From contig JACQVT010000239.1 in the NCBI GenBank assembly GCA_016209665.1, positions 1 through 15,365 on the forward strand: 15,365 bases of DNA. The letters are read 5' to 3'. Every line of letters starts with the position of its first letter. Positions within the stretch are counted from its first letter, which is position 1. The position numbers and the translations under genes are program-made. This document shows, piece by piece, positions 3,298 through 9,942 of this stretch. The notes below the pieces were generated by a model. That model was not told the origin of the DNA and made no database searches. It was given only the letters and a program-made list of their open reading frames with translations. This DNA is from Planctomycetota bacterium. Its GTDB lineage: Bacteria > Planctomycetota > Phycisphaerae > UBA1845 > PWPN01.

Positions 3298-4119
3298 TCA
3301 ATACACGTACTCGAACCGCTCGCTCGATGCCAGGCGGAAGCCGAAGTCGGCGAACCGTTTGGTTGGGGCGAGGCTGCTGCGGGCGGCGCAGCGGGAATAC
3401 TTGATGTGGTGTCGCCAGGAGCCGCCGCGGGCGACGCGACGATCGGTCGCCGCCGGTCCTCGCGGGTTGTATCGGGGGCTGGTCGCGTAGTAGTTCGGGG
3501 CATAGTAGTCGGCGCACCACTCGTGGACGTTGTCGGCCATGTGGTAGAGGCCGAAATCGTTCGGCCCCGCCGCCCCGGCACAGCGGACCGGCATGGGTCC
3601 CCCGGTGGGCGGTCCGGCCAGGCCCTCGGCGTACACGCCCTCCAACGGCAGCGCCTCATCACCCCAAGGATAGCCCTGCTGCGCCCGCCCGCCGCGGGCG
3701 GCGTATTCCCGCTGGGCTTCGGTCGGCAGGTGATAGCATTGTCGGGTCTCGGCGCTGAGCCATTGAGCATACGCGACGGCATCCTCCCAACTGACGCCGC
3801 ACACGGGATGCTCCGGGCCGTCGAAACGCGGCTGTTGCCACCCGATCGGCTCGGGATGACCAGTCCAGGCGAGAAACACCGCGTATTCGGCGTTCGTGAC
3901 CGGACAGACCGCGATCGAAAACGCATCGAGCACAACCTCGTGCACCGGCCGCTCGTCCGCCCGTCCTCGCTCGTCGCCGAGCAGGAACGTCCCACCCGGC
4001 AGGGCCCGCATCTCCGGCAGGATCACATCCATCCGGCCGGAAACTGGTTCACCGTGCGCTGGCATGGTGACACGTGTGGGTCTTCGGGCCTCGCGCCATC
4101 GCGGCATTCCCGATGACAC
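3298..4119 (-). CDS. FGE/SUMF1-like domain protein lacking the catalytic cysteines
   Basis: 273 residues if the GTG at 4119 is used. The fold begins near residue 35, so a later start (Met19 or Met30) is equally possible, and none has a convincing ribosome binding site. Family landmarks are the PGGTFLLG opening (41-48), RPVHEV-LDAF with PVTNAEYAVF (58-83), HPVCGVSWEDAVAYAQWLS (104-122), LPTEAQREYAARGG (131-144), the YPWG loop (150-153), NDFGLYHMADNVHEWCADYY (187-206), RGGSW (231-235) and a closing FGFRLA (259-264). True formylglycine-generating enzymes carry two copper-binding cysteines just after RGGS. Here that stretch reads RHHIKYSRC, with His at the first site and the second deleted or replaced. 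The protein is therefore probably not a sulfatase activator despite its neighbour. It may be a binding or scaffold member of the family. No signal peptide is evident. Confidence 0.85.
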   Translation of the reverse strand: MSSGMPRWREARRPTRVTMPAHGEPVSGRMDVILPEMRALPGGTFLLGDERGRADERPVHEVVLDAFSIAVCPVTNAEYAVFLAWTGHPEPIGWQQPRFDGPEHPVCGVSWEDAVAYAQWLSAETRQCYHLPTEAQREYAARGGRAQQGYPWGDEALPLEGVYAEGLAGPPTGGPMPVRCAGAAGPNDFGLYHMADNVHEWCADYYAPNYYATSPRYNPRGPAATDRRVARGGSWRHHIKYSRCAARSSLAPTKRFADFGFRLASSERFEYVY

Positions 4120-4139
4120 GGGAATTCGCGCGTGGACGA

Positions 4140-4272
4140 TCAGAGTAATTCGAGAAGCTGAGCCATTGCCGGTCCGAGATCCCGTCCCATACCCTCGCCG
4201 ACATCGCCCGCCCGCTCACAACCCGCCTGCAGCACCTGTTTCGCCTCCTCCGTCCGCCCCAGCCTCGAAGTC
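4140..4272 (-). pseudogene. C-terminal remnant of a TPR-type small protein
   Basis: In the gap between the sulfatase and FGE-like genes, one minus-strand frame ending in TGA at 4140-4142 reads LGRTEEAKQVLQAGCERAG and ends AMAQLLELL. This is the pattern of the last TPR helix pair and terminal helix of small planctomycete TPR proteins. The frame runs upstream only into the sulfatase gene, where it is out of frame with the sulfatase and gives no protein-like sequence. No start codon or ribosome binding site belongs to it. I read it as a roughly 40-codon gene remnant whose front was lost when the sulfatase gene came to lie here. Chance similarity in a Glu/Ala/Leu-rich stretch cannot be excluded. 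Confidence 0.4.
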
Positions 4273-5883
4273 TCAATCGAGGGGCGGCAGCTTGTCCGCC
4301 ACAGGGTCGCCGGTCTGGTGCATCCAGTCGCGTAGCTGGCGGTCGAGTTTGTGGGCGACCGCACGGTTGGCTGCGTCGGCGGCAACGTTCTTCATCTCGT
4401 CGGGGTCGCGCTTGAGGTCAAACAGCTCGCGGCGGCCCTCGGCGTAGAGGCAGTACTTCCAGTCGGCCGTGCGGATCATGCGGCCCGTGTTGCGGTCGCC
4501 CATGCCGCGCTCGCAGAACGAGGGACGGTCGTCGGGCCCGGCGGCGCCGGTCAGGACCGGCTTGAGGCTGCGACCCTGGACCGATGGCGGGGCGTCGATG
4601 GCCGCGAAGTCCAGGATCGTCGGCATCAGATCGACCGAGTTGCACGCCATGTCGAGCACGCGGCCGGGCGAAATCGACGGCGGGTGGCGCAGCAGCAGCG
4701 GCACGCGGACATCGGCCTCGTAGAAGGCGTGGACGGATTTGCCCATCATGCCGTGGGTACCCTGCATGTCGCCGTGGTCGCTGGTGAAGATGACCAGGGT
4801 GTTGTCGTCCAGGCCGAGGTCGTGGAGCTTCTTGAGGATGCGGCCGACCTGCTCGTCGACCATGCTGACCTGGGCGTAGTAGCAGCGCAACTGCTCGCGG
4901 ATGCCGACCTCGCCCATCTGGGCACCCATGGTGGCGGCCCGGGACGAACGGTAGACGGCGGGCTGGTCCGCGAATGACGGGGGCAACACCATCCTGGCGG
5001 GGTCGTACATGCTGTAGTACGGGTCGGGGGCCACCCACGGGGCGTGCGGCGGCGAGGCGGAGTAGGTGACCATAAAGGGCTTGTCGGCGTGCCGCTCGAT
5101 CCAGGCCATCACCCGGTCGGCTAGCCAGGTGGAAAACTGGGCCGCGAGTGCGACCGCGGACCGCCCGAGCACCTTGACCTCATTGCCCTCGCCATCGGCA
5201 GCGTCGGCGGAGTTCTCGCCGGCGGACCCGCCGCGGACGAGTTCGGCGACGGCCTTGTTCATGAACACGCCCCCGTCACCCCGCACGAAGACCTCGCCTT
5301 CCTTCGGCTCGCGGCTCGCCACGGCGTCGCCCTGGCCGGCGAGCCACTCGCGATAGGCGGCGCGTTCGTCGCCCGCATCGCCCTGCTCCCGGAAGCAGCG
5401 CAGGTTCTGGAAATCGCCGAGGTGCCACTTGCCGAAATAGGCCACCTGGTATCCGCGGTCGGCCAGGACGTTGTGCAGAACGTTGTGTCGGTCGCTCAGC
5501 CCGCTCGCCCGCGGTTCCTGGGCCCGGCGACGGTTGGGGCGGCGACCGTCGGGAGCAACGTTGAACGTGATACCGTGCTTGTGCGGCCACTGACCGGTCC
5601 ACAACGATGCCCGGGTCGGCGAGCAGAACGGTGTGACGCAGGCGGCCTGGGTGAACCGGACCCCCTGCTCGGCCAGGCGATCGAGATGGGGGGTCTTGAC
5701 GATGGGGTTGCCCGACGAGCCCAACACGCTGTAGGTCTGCTGGTCGGTCATCAGGAACAGGATGTTGGGTGGCCGCGAAGGCCGGGTGGCCGGCTGGGCG
5801 CGAACCCCACCCGAGGTCGCGATCAAGCCGAGAATCACAACGGTCCGGGCCGCGATTTGACGGATGCGGGAATACGAAAGCAT
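4273..5883 (-). CDS. Exported Cys-type sulfatase
   Basis: 536 residues from ATG at 5883, preceded by the ribosome binding site AGAGGAG. A signal peptide spans residues 1-29 (Arg-rich start, hydrophobic core VVILGLIATSGG, cleavage after VRA), so the enzyme acts outside the cytoplasm. The sulfatase/alkaline-phosphatase fold is clear: NILFLMTDQQ at 40-49 with metal Asp47, the signature CSPTR at 87-91 followed by TG at 96-97, GKWHLG at 151-156, SPPHAPW at 277-283, and FTSDHGD at 367-372 with metal residues Asp369/His370 and Lys382. Cys87 would be converted to formylglycine, so a real FGE or an anaerobic maturase must exist elsewhere in the genome. The substrate cannot be told from sequence; sulfated polysaccharides are usual in this phylum. 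It follows the amidohydrolase gene after 21 bp, which implies one transcript. Confidence 0.95.
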   Translation of the reverse strand: MLSYSRIRQIAARTVVILGLIATSGGVRAQPATRPSRPPNILFLMTDQQTYSVLGSSGNPIVKTPHLDRLAEQGVRFTQAACVTPFCSPTRASLWTGQWPHKHGITFNVAPDGRRPNRRRAQEPRASGLSDRHNVLHNVLADRGYQVAYFGKWHLGDFQNLRCFREQGDAGDERAAYREWLAGQGDAVASREPKEGEVFVRGDGGVFMNKAVAELVRGGSAGENSADAADGEGNEVKVLGRSAVALAAQFSTWLADRVMAWIERHADKPFMVTYSASPPHAPWVAPDPYYSMYDPARMVLPPSFADQPAVYRSSRAATMGAQMGEVGIREQLRCYYAQVSMVDEQVGRILKKLHDLGLDDNTLVIFTSDHGDMQGTHGMMGKSVHAFYEADVRVPLLLRHPPSISPGRVLDMACNSVDLMPTILDFAAIDAPPSVQGRSLKPVLTGAAGPDDRPSFCERGMGDRNTGRMIRTADWKYCLYAEGRRELFDLKRDPDEMKNVAADAANRAVAHKLDRQLRDWMHQTGDPVADKLPPLD

Positions 5884-6905: not shown

Positions 6906-8336
6906 ATGATCCGCACCAAGGTGGTAGCAACCGTCGGCCCCGCATGTGACAGCGATATCGTGCTCGGCCGGATGATCGACGCGGGCGTGAACGTGTTCCG
7001 CTTGAACTTCTCCCATGGGACGATCGAAGGACACGGTGCCGCCCTGGGACGCATCCGCCGGGCGGCGGCGGAGCGCGGGGCCATCGTGGCGGTGCTCGGC
7101 GACTTGTGCGGGCCCAAAATCCGCCTCGGCGAGATCGCGGGCGGCCGGTGCACGCTGGTCGCCGGGCGGCCCGTGACTTTCCAACGCGCCGCAATGGTGG
7201 GAACGCCCGAGCGACTCAGCAGCAGCTACCCCGCCCTCGTCGACGACGTGGGCGTGGGCGACCGCATTCTCATCGACGACGGCAATGTGCTGCTTCGCGT
7301 GACCGAAAAACGCCAGGACGAGGTGGTGGCCCTCTGCGAGGTCGGCGGTGTGATCAGCGACCGCAAGGGCATCAACCTGCCCGACTCGGCCGTCTCGTCG
7401 CCGAGCCTGACCGATAAGGACCGCCGCGACCTGGAATGGATCGTGGGCAACGGACTCGACTACGTGGCCCTGTCGTTCGTGCGCCGGGCAGACGATCTGG
7501 CCGAACTGCGGGCGGCGATCAGCCGATGCGATCCCGCCAGCCCGGCGCGCGTCGTCTCCAAGATCGAGAAACCCCAGGCGGTCGAGCACATCGGCGAGAT
7601 CATCGAGGCGTCCGACGTGGTGCTCGTCGCCCGCGGCGACCTGGGCGTCGAAATGGACGTCTCGCGGGTGCCGATCATCCAGAAGGAGCTGGCGGTCGCG
7701 TGCCGGCAGGCGGGCAAGCCGGTGATCGTGGCCACGCAGATGCTCCAGTCGATGGTCGACTCGCCCGTGCCGACGCGGGCCGAGGTGAGCGACGTCGCCA
7801 ACGCCATCCTCGACGACGCCGACGCCGTGATGCTCTCGGCGGAAACCTCGGTAGGCCAGTACCCCGTGCAAGCGGTGCAGATGATGCGACGGATCGCCGG
7901 CCAGACCGAGGCGTTCACGAAGCGGTTTGGCCAGCCTTGGTCGGCGGCGCCCGCCCGAAAGCCGCCGCTGGCCCGCTCGGTCATCCACGGGGCCAGCGTG
8001 GTAGCCGAGGAACTGAACGCCCCGCTGGTGGTCGTCTGGACACTGGGGAGCGACGCGGCCCGCTTGCTCAGCCGGCATCGGCTGGCTGCCCCCATTGTCG
8101 CCCTCACCCCGAACGAGACCGCCTGCCGCCAGATGTCGCTGCTGTACGGCGTGGTGCCCGTCTGCCAGCCCGAGATGGACACGCCCCAGATGATGCTGCG
8201 GAACCTCGATCGCCTGGTGACTTCCCGGCAACTCGCAGCCCCCGGCGACCAGGTGGTCGTGGTTTTCGACATGCGGCCGGAGGTTCCCGGCGAGACCGAC
8301 GCGATCGTCGTCCACACGGTGGCCGGCGGGGCCTAG
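6906..8336 (+). CDS. pyk: Pyruvate kinase
   Basis: 476 residues, normal length. It converts phosphoenolpyruvate and ADP to pyruvate and ATP, the last step of glycolysis, in the cytoplasm. The start MIRTKVVATVGPA is the conserved beginning of the A domain. FRLNFSHG (31-38) supplies the phosphate- and potassium-site residues, GDLCGPKIRLG opens the B domain, and SKIEKP carries the catalytic Lys and a metal Glu. ARGDLGVE carries the metal Asp, and the ATQMLQSM, PTRAEVSDVANAI and DAVMLSAETSVGQYP blocks are the family signature. The C-terminal regulatory domain (from about residue 355) is complete and ends near VVHTVAGGA. The ATG at 6906 has no ribosome binding site, fitting a leaderless message. 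Single gene, divergent from the amidohydrolase operon. Confidence 0.97.
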   Translation: MIRTKVVATVGPACDSDIVLGRMIDAGVNVFRLNFSHGTIEGHGAALGRIRRAAAERGAIVAVLGDLCGPKIRLGEIAGGRCTLVAGRPVTFQRAAMVGTPERLSSSYPALVDDVGVGDRILIDDGNVLLRVTEKRQDEVVALCEVGGVISDRKGINLPDSAVSSPSLTDKDRRDLEWIVGNGLDYVALSFVRRADDLAELRAAISRCDPASPARVVSKIEKPQAVEHIGEIIEASDVVLVARGDLGVEMDVSRVPIIQKELAVACRQAGKPVIVATQMLQSMVDSPVPTRAEVSDVANAILDDADAVMLSAETSVGQYPVQAVQMMRRIAGQTEAFTKRFGQPWSAAPARKPPLARSVIHGASVVAEELNAPLVVVWTLGSDAARLLSRHRLAAPIVALTPNETACRQMSLLYGVVPVCQPEMDTPQMMLRNLDRLVTSRQLAAPGDQVVVVFDMRPEVPGETDAIVVHTVAGGA

Positions 8337-8374
8337 GTTTCCGTCACACTTCAATCGGCGATGGGCCCGAGTTC

Positions 8375-8392
8375 GGGACGGCAAACCGTCCC
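8375..8392 (+). other. Hairpin downstream of pyk
   Basis: GGGACGG, loop CAAA, CCGTCCC: a perfect 7-bp stem 38 bases after the pyk stop. No T-tract follows, so it is not a classical intrinsic terminator. It may protect the 3' end of the pyk transcript or act with another factor. Confidence 0.5.
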
Positions 8393-8472
8393 CTATCCGT
8401 CGGCGGAACGCCCAACGGCGGGCCGAAACCGGCCTCAAGAGCCCGTCCTGGCATTTTTTTTGAGACTCACGC

Positions 8473-8501
8473 TTGACTTCGCCTGGGCGAGGGGGAACAA
8501 A
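8473..8501 (+). promoter_or_regulatory. Putative promoter of small RNA copy 1
   Basis: TTGACT (8473-8478), a 17-base spacer ending in GGGGG, then AACAAA (8496-8501). The -35 box matches five of six. The -10 box is poor on its own (three of six), but spacing and flanks are repeated in copy 2. A T8 run at 8454-8461 sits where an UP element could be. Confidence 0.45.
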
Positions 8502-8507
8502 CAGGAC

Positions 8508-8576
8508 GAAGAGAACCTTCTCCTCCTTCAAGACTCTCTCTCCTCCACGGGATCGTGCAAGCGATCCCGGTTTTTT
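8508..8576 (+). ncRNA. Candidate small RNA, copy 1 (CU-rich anti-Shine-Dalgarno type)
   Basis: About 69 bases from the predicted start. Order: a small hairpin (GAGA, loop ACCT, TCTC at 8511-8522), a CU-rich unpaired stretch containing CTCCTCC twice (8522-8528 region and 8540-8546) within ACTCTCTCTCCTCCA at 8533-8547, then an intrinsic terminator at 8548-8576. The CU tract resembles the 16S anti-Shine-Dalgarno sequence and could pair with GGAGG-type ribosome binding sites, as in CU-rich trans-acting small RNAs of other bacteria. A second copy lies 199 bases downstream. Promoter, boundaries and function are inferred. Alternatively both copies are attenuators in a long leader of the gene at 9010. 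Confidence 0.6.
8548..8576 (+). terminator. Intrinsic terminator of small RNA copy 1
   Basis: CGGGATCG, loop TGCAAG, CGATCCCG, G, then T6. The 8-bp stem is perfect. The T-tract exists only on the plus side, which fixes the direction. Confidence 0.85.
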
Positions 8577-8671
8577 GCGCCGCCATCGGCTGTGGGTGGA
8601 TCCGCCTCTCGCCGTCGCCCTGGAGAATCAGCCCCCCTCGCACGAAGACAAAATGTTTTTGAACCTCGCGC

Positions 8672-8700
8672 TTGACTGCGGGCGTTCAGGGGGGAATAAA
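8672..8700 (+). promoter_or_regulatory. Putative promoter of small RNA copy 2
   Basis: TTGACT (8672-8677), a 17-base spacer ending in GGGGGG, then AATAAA (8695-8700; four of six). The preceding bases (TTTTTGA, two variable bases, CTC, one variable base, CGC directly before TTGACT) match copy 1, so the whole promoter-like module is duplicated. Confidence 0.5.
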
Positions 8701-8706
8701 GACCCG

Positions 8707-8778
8707 GAAGCTGACAAGCTTCTTCTCAAAACTCTCTCTCTCCTCCAACGGGACCTCTCCAAGGTCCCGTGTTTTTTT
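8707..8778 (+). ncRNA. Candidate small RNA, copy 2 (CU-rich anti-Shine-Dalgarno type)
   Basis: About 72 bases from the predicted start. Order: a perfect 6-bp hairpin (GAAGCT, loop GACA, AGCTTC at 8707-8722), an A-rich link, ACTCTCTCTCTCCTCCA (8731-8747), and a terminator with a 9-bp perfect stem. Compared with copy 1 the CU tract has one more CT, and both the 5' hairpin and the terminator stem have different sequences that still pair. This pattern supports RNA genes that arose by duplication and are held by structure. Confidence 0.6.
8748..8778 (+). terminator. Intrinsic terminator of small RNA copy 2
   Basis: ACGGGACCT (8748-8756), loop CTCCA, AGGTCCCGT (8762-8770), G, T7 (8772-8778). Perfect 9-bp stem, plus-strand direction. 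Confidence 0.88.
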
Positions 8779-8911
8779 GTGGCCCGCCCCGGCTTCGACC
8801 GGCAACGAAACTCGCCTGGGCCTCGCTTGTACATTAAGTGGGAGGAAAAATGGAATAGAGTCGCAGCCACGGCGTCCGGATCCGTGCGACAGGCGGTGTG
8901 CGAAACGTGGT

Positions 8912-8940
8912 TTGTGGATGCCGTCGAGCGTCCATAGAAT
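8912..8940 (+). promoter_or_regulatory. Putative promoter of the ABC exporter operon
   Basis: TTGTGG (8912-8917), a 17-base spacer, TAGAAT (8935-8940). The start would be near 8947, a leader of about 63 bases before the ATG at 9010. The same TAGAAT box precedes pyk (6893) and the small membrane protein gene (12632). Confidence 0.4.
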
Positions 8941-9009
8941 GTGTACCAGGGGACAAAGGTGGCCGCGGGACGCAGCCCATAAACCGCGGGGTGAGCGCGG
9001 GGGTCCATC

Positions 9010-9942
9010 ATGTACCGGTTGCTGAGCGTCGGCATCGTACTCCTGTGGGTCACGGCGATGGCGGCCCTGTTCGTGCGCGACGTGTACCCGGCGTGGACGG
9101 CCCAGGACGCCCCACCCATGACAAAGGAGCAACTGGCCCGGTTGGACCAGCGGCAACAGCAGATGGCCATCTGCGACGCCGGGGGCAAGCGCCTGGGCAC
9201 CGCCTGGAGCGACATCTCCTCCGCCGGCGGAAACACGTCGATCCGCGGGACCGTCCACCTCGAGGGCATCGCGCTGGTGCCGGTCCTGCTCGTGGAGACG
9301 AGCACCGATTTCGACCCCCAGGGCGAGTTGGACAGCTTCAACCTGGACGTGTTCGGCGTGCCGGCGACCACGATCAAGGTCCGCGGCGAGCGTCACGGCA
9401 TCTACTTCCCGTGCGAGATTCAGATCGGGCCATTGTTCCGTCAGGCCAACTTGGAGATGGCGGCCAGCCGCCTGCTGGGCGATGCGTTCCGGCCGTTCAA
9501 CTACCTGCCGGCACTGAAGGTCGGCCAATCCTGGCGGATGCAGGTGATCGACCCGGTTTCGGCGGCCCTCGGGGGCGGCACGCGATTCACCGCCGTCGTC
9601 GCCCGCGTGACGGGCAAGGAGACGATCGAGTACCGCGGCCGGCCGATCGAGTGCTTCGTCGTCGAGACCTCGCCGGGCCGGGCCAAGGCCTGGGTGGACG
9701 CCGAGGGCTGCGTGTTCCGCCAGCAGGTCGAACTGCCCGGCCTCGGCCGACTGATCGTCTCCGACGAGCCCTACGACGACGAAGCCCGGACCCGCGCCCG
9801 CCGGAGGGTCCGCCGCGGGAACGACGAGGGCGAACACGTCGGCGCCGCCGCCACGATCAAGGAAATAGCAAGGCCGATCGAGGTCCTGCGCACCTCGATC
9901 ACGAACGTTCTGGGCGGAGGCGATCATGGCGGCAATGATTGA
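9010..9942 (+). CDS. Membrane-anchored or exported protein of unknown function, first gene of the ABC operon
   Basis: 310 residues from ATG at 9010. I do not recognise a named family. Residues 5-22 form one hydrophobic segment (LSVGIVLLWVTAMAALFV), an uncleaved anchor or signal peptide, so the rest should lie outside the cytoplasmic membrane. The body is rich in beta-type sequence. The section from KVGQSWRMQV to the VDAEGCVFRQ region looks like the 'well-defined base, conversion, then Lys/Arg-linked readout' of DUF3108/LolA-like beta proteins, a weak analogy. The tail has an Arg/Asp/Glu-rich stretch (about 257-278). The stop overlaps the next gene by 17 bases, so it is very probably translationally coupled to the ATPase and works with the exporter. 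Confidence 0.75.
   Translation: MYRLLSVGIVLLWVTAMAALFVRDVYPAWTAQDAPPMTKEQLARLDQRQQQMAICDAGGKRLGTAWSDISSAGGNTSIRGTVHLEGIALVPVLLVETSTDFDPQGELDSFNLDVFGVPATTIKVRGERHGIYFPCEIQIGPLFRQANLEMAASRLLGDAFRPFNYLPALKVGQSWRMQVIDPVSAALGGGTRFTAVVARVTGKETIEYRGRPIECFVVETSPGRAKAWVDAEGCVFRQQVELPGLGRLIVSDEPYDDEARTRARRRVRRGNDEGEHVGAAATIKEIARPIEVLRTSITNVLGGGDHGGND

Follow-up and report, generated by a model that had tools for sequence, protein, structure and literature searches.

The window analysed here is a stretch of 15,365 nucleotides from a planctomycete draft assembly (G000, completeness 77.55%). It carries two units on the + strand, U1 (8454-8580) and U2 (8654-8780), between a pyruvate kinase ORF (6906-8336, Pfam PK) and an ORF at 9010-9942 that has no Pfam match. 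Both have, in the main, the order of elements given in the preliminary description of this DNA. A T-run and CTC-N-CGC precede TTGACT, which starts at 8473 and 8672, 199 bases apart; a 17-base spacer with G5 or G6 at its end leads to AACAAA (U1) or AATAAA (U2), and then come a variable part, a CU segment, the main tract ACTCTCTCTC(TC)CTCCA and a terminator. Elsewhere in the window (3298-5883, - strand), an FGE-sulfatase-domain protein adjoins a sulfatase (Pfam).

In U1, the promoter-like block (8473-8501; TTGACT 8473-8478, 17 bases, AACAAA 8496-8501), whose layout recurs in the 22 units that we tabulated, precedes a predicted small RNA of ~70 nt (8508-8577) with a putative start placed from the block. 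This RNA would comprise a first CU segment 5' of the main tract (CTTCTCCTC; CTTCTCCTCCTTC at 8517-8529, with a counterpart in U2-U5), the main CU tract, of anti-Shine-Dalgarno type (8532-8547), and a terminator (8548-8576; stem 8548-8569 and T-run). The corresponding features of U2 are the block (8672-8700; TTGACT 8672-8677, 17 bases, AATAAA 8695-8700), a predicted RNA of ~72 nt with a start placed likewise (8706-8778), a 7-bp 5' hairpin in the predicted fold (8706-8723), the first CU segment CTTCTTCTC, the main anti-Shine-Dalgarno tract (8731-8747) and a terminator (8748-8778; stem 8748-8770 with a CUCCA loop, then a T-run). Both terminators were recovered by folding and by terminator search and have nine pairs followed by the T-run; as previously claimed, both stems pair despite their different sequences.

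The CU tract is a long stretch with few G residues, most of which the folds leave unpaired. Each of U2-U5 has three CU segments, including a CUCC in the terminator loop, and this loop motif is absent from the terminator loops of U1 and U6. The 5' hairpin had been attributed to both window units and stands for U2; in the minimum-energy fold of U1, the 5' end pairs with the CU tract instead. Among the eight units folded, it is clear in U2, U3 and U6, at most weak in U4 and U5, and missing from both units of genome G008. Judged by these predicted folds, it is not a trait of the family.

A conserved promoter-like block

A sigma-70 consensus scan of 8300-9010 returned no promoter. Compared with sigma-70 promoters (TTGACA and a TATAAT-like hexamer, 16-18 bases apart), the first hexamer (T(T/G)GACT) and the spacing fit, and the second hexamer (AAYAAA or CTAnnA) departs. 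The promoter-like hexamers are conserved, the -10-like one being unusual: an upstream block is found in each of the 22 tabulated units (G055 is outside the table), with hexamers 17 bases apart, a spacing that can only be descriptive because the register was fixed by eye before tabulation. In U6, the block (TTGCCT-17-AATAAG) is intact upstream despite a large extra 5' hairpin. Two loci have the block in other company. At L045 (G008, contig C129), the same block (TTGACTTCCG...GGGGGAATGATC) precedes a different sequence that lacks the arrangement of CU tract and terminator, and at L359 (G007) a promoter-like block and a strong terminator occur without a CU tract, perhaps in a diverged unit.

Units in the genus and the order

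A BLAST search with 8454-8778 matched 2 of 61 genomes, giving a third copy in G000 (U3, contig C690, E 8.6e-16) and two copies in G001, a sister species of the same genus g1 (E 3.4e-12 and 2.2e-11). Covariance models, an approach that the preliminary description had proposed, extended this set within the genus and the order. Searched over 13 genomes of the bacterial family, model R1 added U6 in G001 and, in G008 of another genus, a pair of units separated by 2 kb. The genus has six units in all (U1-U6). Between copies, block, tract and terminator are retained and the 5' part varies; by eye, neighbouring genes differ from one copy to the next. Model R2, built from six units and searched over 114 genomes, gained a tandem of three units in G016 and a single unit in G049. 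Model R3, built from only those four units of two distant genomes, recovers exactly the positions of U1 and U2 (E 7.3e-9 and 4.8e-6; per-genome E 2.3e-6 and 1.6e-3), where R1 and R2 match too. At E <= 0.05, R3 matched 19/114 genomes, 13 of which had a CU tract and terminator on inspection (G000, G001, G008, G016, G028, G046, G049, G055, G063, G064, G065, G067 and G069); the matches in the other six were unconvincing (G007, G009, G078, G089, G094 and G097).

The tandem arrangement stressed in the preliminary description recurs in relatives, with tandem pairs in G028, G049 and G065. The family is nonetheless wider than the tandem pair and reaches into other bacterial families of the order, with dispersed copies, single copies and two-hairpin forms, the last having a CU-hairpin-CU-terminator order within one predicted transcript (G028, G046, G055 and G069). 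The tract of bacterial family f4 is (CUC)n.

Weak matches of R1 (L012-L015, L021, L024, L028-L030), R2 (L035, L036, L046, L048, L049, L051) and R3 (L354, L359, L361, L362, L363, L365) were discarded by eye for want of a CU tract or of the layout. R1 matches L022, L023, L025 and L026 are the opposite strand of known terminators, and pattern matches in Streptomyces and Paenibacillus (L005, L008) were taken as chance. Rfam 15 gave no match at the gathering cut-off in the window and 20 loci (19 of family f10, described below, and L001). Among the open-licence papers listed in literature searches, none described the family or a small RNA for PEP-CTERM genes. Overall, the original observation is partly confirmed, and relatives that repeat the layout, together with the recurrent block, support its interpretation as small RNA genes with an anti-Shine-Dalgarno tract.

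Candidate relatives across the class

The exact 14-mer CTCTCTCTCCTCCA was sought in 397 genomes of the class. It is present in 43/44 genomes of f10, a bacterial family in another order, in 3/3 of family f12, in 2/2 of g1 and in 8/348 others; the reversed 14-mer, used as a control, is in 2/397. Outside the class, in the phylum sample of 292 genomes, it occurs in 13/253 genomes (control 8/253), and by eye none of those 13 sites runs into a terminator. In f10, 60 distinct places were examined: 45 have the form CTCTCTCTCCTCCA-G(C/T)GGGG(C/T)..., in 10 others the tract continues into strong hairpins of an unrelated kind (-21 kcal/mol or lower) and in five it does not. Across the 45, the hairpin covaries: 98.3% of cells pair, whereas sliding the partners gives 62.7% at most, and 7/13 pairs are changed on both sides; 0/500 shuffles were as good, although shuffles overstate covariation because the sequences are related. 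This covariation in the terminators of class-level relatives supports the selection on RNA structure first suspected from the window pair. One upstream ORF is common to 18 of the 27 f10 loci compared.

The f10 RNAs are likely, if not proven, homologues of the window units, judging by the tract, by where the hairpin lies and by R2 matches, which are weak (E 0.0019 and 0.0102); their likeness to those of g1 may also be convergence on a common target sequence. We rejected an antisense reading of the f10 sites, with GGAGG...ATG on the opposite strand, since the upstream sequences compared do not conserve the ATG. CCGATA stands upstream of the tract in 26 of the f10 loci compared (the L055-L081 set); it is promoter-like and unlike the order-level block. 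Genus g87 of f10 has a second candidate CU-tract and hairpin RNA, on the strand opposite to five matches of the target search below (L182, L184, L186, L187 and L189 in G141, G153, G320, G124 and G115), with stems that differ between the five genomes yet are self-complementary. In f12 (L052, L053, L116), the 14-mer is part of a repeated element, with hairpins of the GGCTTGGG...CAAGCCTG type after it; L116 has this arrangement twice within 130 bases.

Target-like sites before PEP-CTERM genes

The complement of the tract, GGAGGAGAGAG, followed by ATG within 12 bases, was searched in 79 genomes. Of 54 rows, 18 were removed as CU 14-mer sites on the other strand (17 with the hairpin and one, in G355, without) and five more as the other strand of the second g87 RNA, leaving 31 rows (30 places). 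Twenty-four places lie in the 45 carriers of the 14-mer and six in the 34 other genomes of the class; these 34 lack the 14-mer and include five f4 genomes, one of which (G028) carries (CUC)n units. All six g1 places (two in G000, four in G001) lead into proteins that, by eye, begin like a signal peptide and end in a PEP-CTERM tail, TIGR02595 scoring above cut-off in five and below it in L197. In f10, 11/18 places open an ORF of at least 100 aa: six have CTERM-like tails by eye, three encode other exported proteins and two are response-regulator-like; TIGR02595 was above cut-off in one of four scanned proteins. Exported proteins are common among the six control places as well, two being CTERM-like (L203, L206), and therefore GGAGGAGAGAG-ATG marks exported and PEP-CTERM genes generally, more often in carriers.

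A comparison independent of the site started from PEP-CTERM genes chosen by HMM (the 11 listed of 19 PF07589 matches in G001) and took as reference the gene calls for 400 kb of G001 (278 genes). The longest match to TGGAGGAGAGAGAG averaged 8.18 in PEP-CTERM genes vs 3.96 in the 278 genes (p 1.1e-7); for secreted non-PEP genes it was 4.83 (PEP-CTERM vs these, p 1.7e-5). Among G001 genes with GGAGG, GGAGGAGA is present in 7/9 PEP-CTERM vs 0/36 ordinary genes (p 7.9e-7). The G001 score was reached by 23/500 permutations of the A/G flanks and 0/500 random flanks. G000 is a fragmented draft, in which the eight scorable of nine listed PEP genes average only 4.75, several being contig-end fragments without a real start. 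The tract is thus complementary to an extended Shine-Dalgarno sequence before PEP-CTERM genes in G001 and the genus, and these genes are likely targets, as far as complementarity can tell. U3 lies ~200 bases upstream of a PEP-CTERM gene, in the same direction (L252 and L002; G000:C690, minus strand, at 7932-8045 and ~7730).

Tracts of different lineages were compared with sites as hand-chosen strings of 21-31 nt, five in all, each with a background mean of 4.3-4.4. Genes with doubtful starts or fragments were left out (L240, L249, L253, L254, L306, L324, L334), L252 was used only in the G000 set, and L321, L340 and L345 had no ORF. The mean longest perfect complement in G001 was 8.80 with the g1 tract and 8.00 with the G049 tract, a non-significant difference (p 0.20). 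The f10 genomes G115 and G344 gave 7.5-8.75 with g1/f10 tracts vs 5.25-5.67 with those of G016 and G049. G016 reached 6.89 with its own tract vs at most 6.0 with others, and G049 7.00 vs at most 6.33, with p 0.045-0.125 in single paired tests. A label permutation over three tract classes gave p 5e-5, without phylogenetic correction. Other genomes do not follow this pattern: G000 is flat, its six usable PEP genes preferring no tract; the sites of G008 (n = 3) do not match its own tract; and in G018, where no unit was found, PEP-CTERM genes match the g1/f10 tract at 7.2-7.3. At the sites of G001 and G016, duplex energies favour the (CUC)n tract of G049 over the tracts of these two genomes themselves, and whole-site energies compared with shuffles were uninformative, some shuffles pairing better in most cases. 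Co-evolution of tracts and sites is therefore suggestive only, match length supporting it and duplex energy not.

Discussion

We favour, with some confidence, the view that the units are free-standing genes for ~70 nt trans-acting, Hfq-independent anti-Shine-Dalgarno RNAs that repress the mRNAs of PEP-CTERM surface proteins. Each unit would be transcribed as a ~70 nt RNA, whose CU tract, second CU segment in the 5' part and, in U2-U5, CUCC in the terminator loop would pair with PEP-CTERM mRNAs at their purine-rich ribosome sites. Pairing would block 30S binding there, so that the output of exosortase-sorted surface proteins might be lowered together without Hfq; multiple copies could add dose and separate promoters. 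A search for Hfq (PF17209) over 12 genomes from the bacterial family came back negative, and we set aside an Hfq-dependent reading on this ground; G001 is 100% complete, and the control search matched 5/14 known genomes. A broader proposal, which we advance tentatively as a conjecture, is that the RNAs read an RNA-level address of the exosortase-sorted surface proteome: a class-wide extended Shine-Dalgarno sequence of PEP-CTERM genes would be recognised by multicopy, co-evolving anti-Shine-Dalgarno RNAs, without Hfq.

The RNAs could instead be general anti-Shine-Dalgarno regulators with no PEP-CTERM regulon, the PEP-CTERM sites being strong for other reasons, such as high expression or a shared leader. 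The purine-rich sites of G018 PEP genes, the two response regulators among the f10 target-like places and the A/G-flank permutations all speak for this, but the absence of GGAGGAGA from ordinary GGAGG genes of G001 and the lower scores of secreted non-PEP genes speak against it, and we consider it rather unlikely. It is quite improbable that the CU tract is a protein-binding site, for Rho loading or as a decoy of a pyrimidine-binding protein, with no antisense seed: its length, scarcity of G and mostly unpaired state would suit such a role, but neither an exact 14-mer in nearly all f10 genomes nor a match to ribosome sites is expected of a loose pyrimidine site.

The least probable reading, in our judgement, is that the units have no function as RNA and are either a dispersed repeat or mere terminators or 3' ends that belong to adjacent genes. 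U1 does lie ~120 bases downstream of the end of the pyruvate kinase ORF (8336), and the copies are dispersed. However, each tabulated unit has its own upstream block, U2 comes directly after a terminator, block, tract and terminator are kept where the 5' part changes, the f10 hairpin covaries, and the f10 loci commonly share an upstream ORF.

Should the favoured reading be right, it would add an RNA family found in almost all genomes sampled from one bacterial family of the class. We know of no earlier post-transcriptional regulon for PEP-CTERM proteins, and the one proposed here would be the first known to us if the address reading holds. The list of small RNAs for this group is short: a table in a 2022 review gives eight for the whole PVC group vs 345 for Proteobacteria (PMC9029176). 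The known control of PEP-CTERM genes by PrsK/PrsR and sigma-54 is described in Haft 2006 as transcriptional, with a motif shared only by Proteobacteria and with further regulators remaining to be found (PMC1569441). The proposed system would resemble it in coordinating PEP-CTERM genes and differ from it in not being transcriptional or limited to Proteobacteria; it would be a candidate answer to the question of control outside Proteobacteria that the same paper left open in 2006 (PMC1569441).

Multicopy RNAs of this kind are known elsewhere. The sibling sRNAs of Neisseria meningitidis and the cuckoo RNAs (CcsR) of Rhodobacter are tandem or multicopy and have anti-Shine-Dalgarno-type motifs, as here, but they belong to Proteobacteria with Hfq; their relation to the window units was examined through Rfam only. 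The csRNAs of Streptococcus pneumoniae are several similar, additive RNAs controlled by CiaR, with comC established as a target by compensatory changes (PMC4507080). They too are short and complementary around the Shine-Dalgarno and start codon; CiaR control and a shown target set them apart. The closest parallel is LhrC of Listeria, described as multicopy short RNAs with UCCC motifs that base-pair with a surface-protein mRNA at its Shine-Dalgarno sequence and can do without Hfq, and with three CU-rich motifs in a 5' loop, a single-stranded stretch and the terminator loop (PMC4132741). The units share with LhrC the multiple copies and, in part, the placing of CU motifs: these lie in the 5' part and in a single-stranded stretch, and U2-U5 have one in the terminator loop that U1 and U6 lack, while the 5' hairpin is not general. 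They come from another phylum, have (CU)n CUCC instead of UCCC and no Rfam match, and have a proposed target where that of LhrC is demonstrated. By analogy, the window RNAs would most likely act as LhrC does. Multicopy anti-Shine-Dalgarno RNAs are thus a known kind; to our knowledge, the family, its lineage-shifting tract and its likely PEP-CTERM target set are new.
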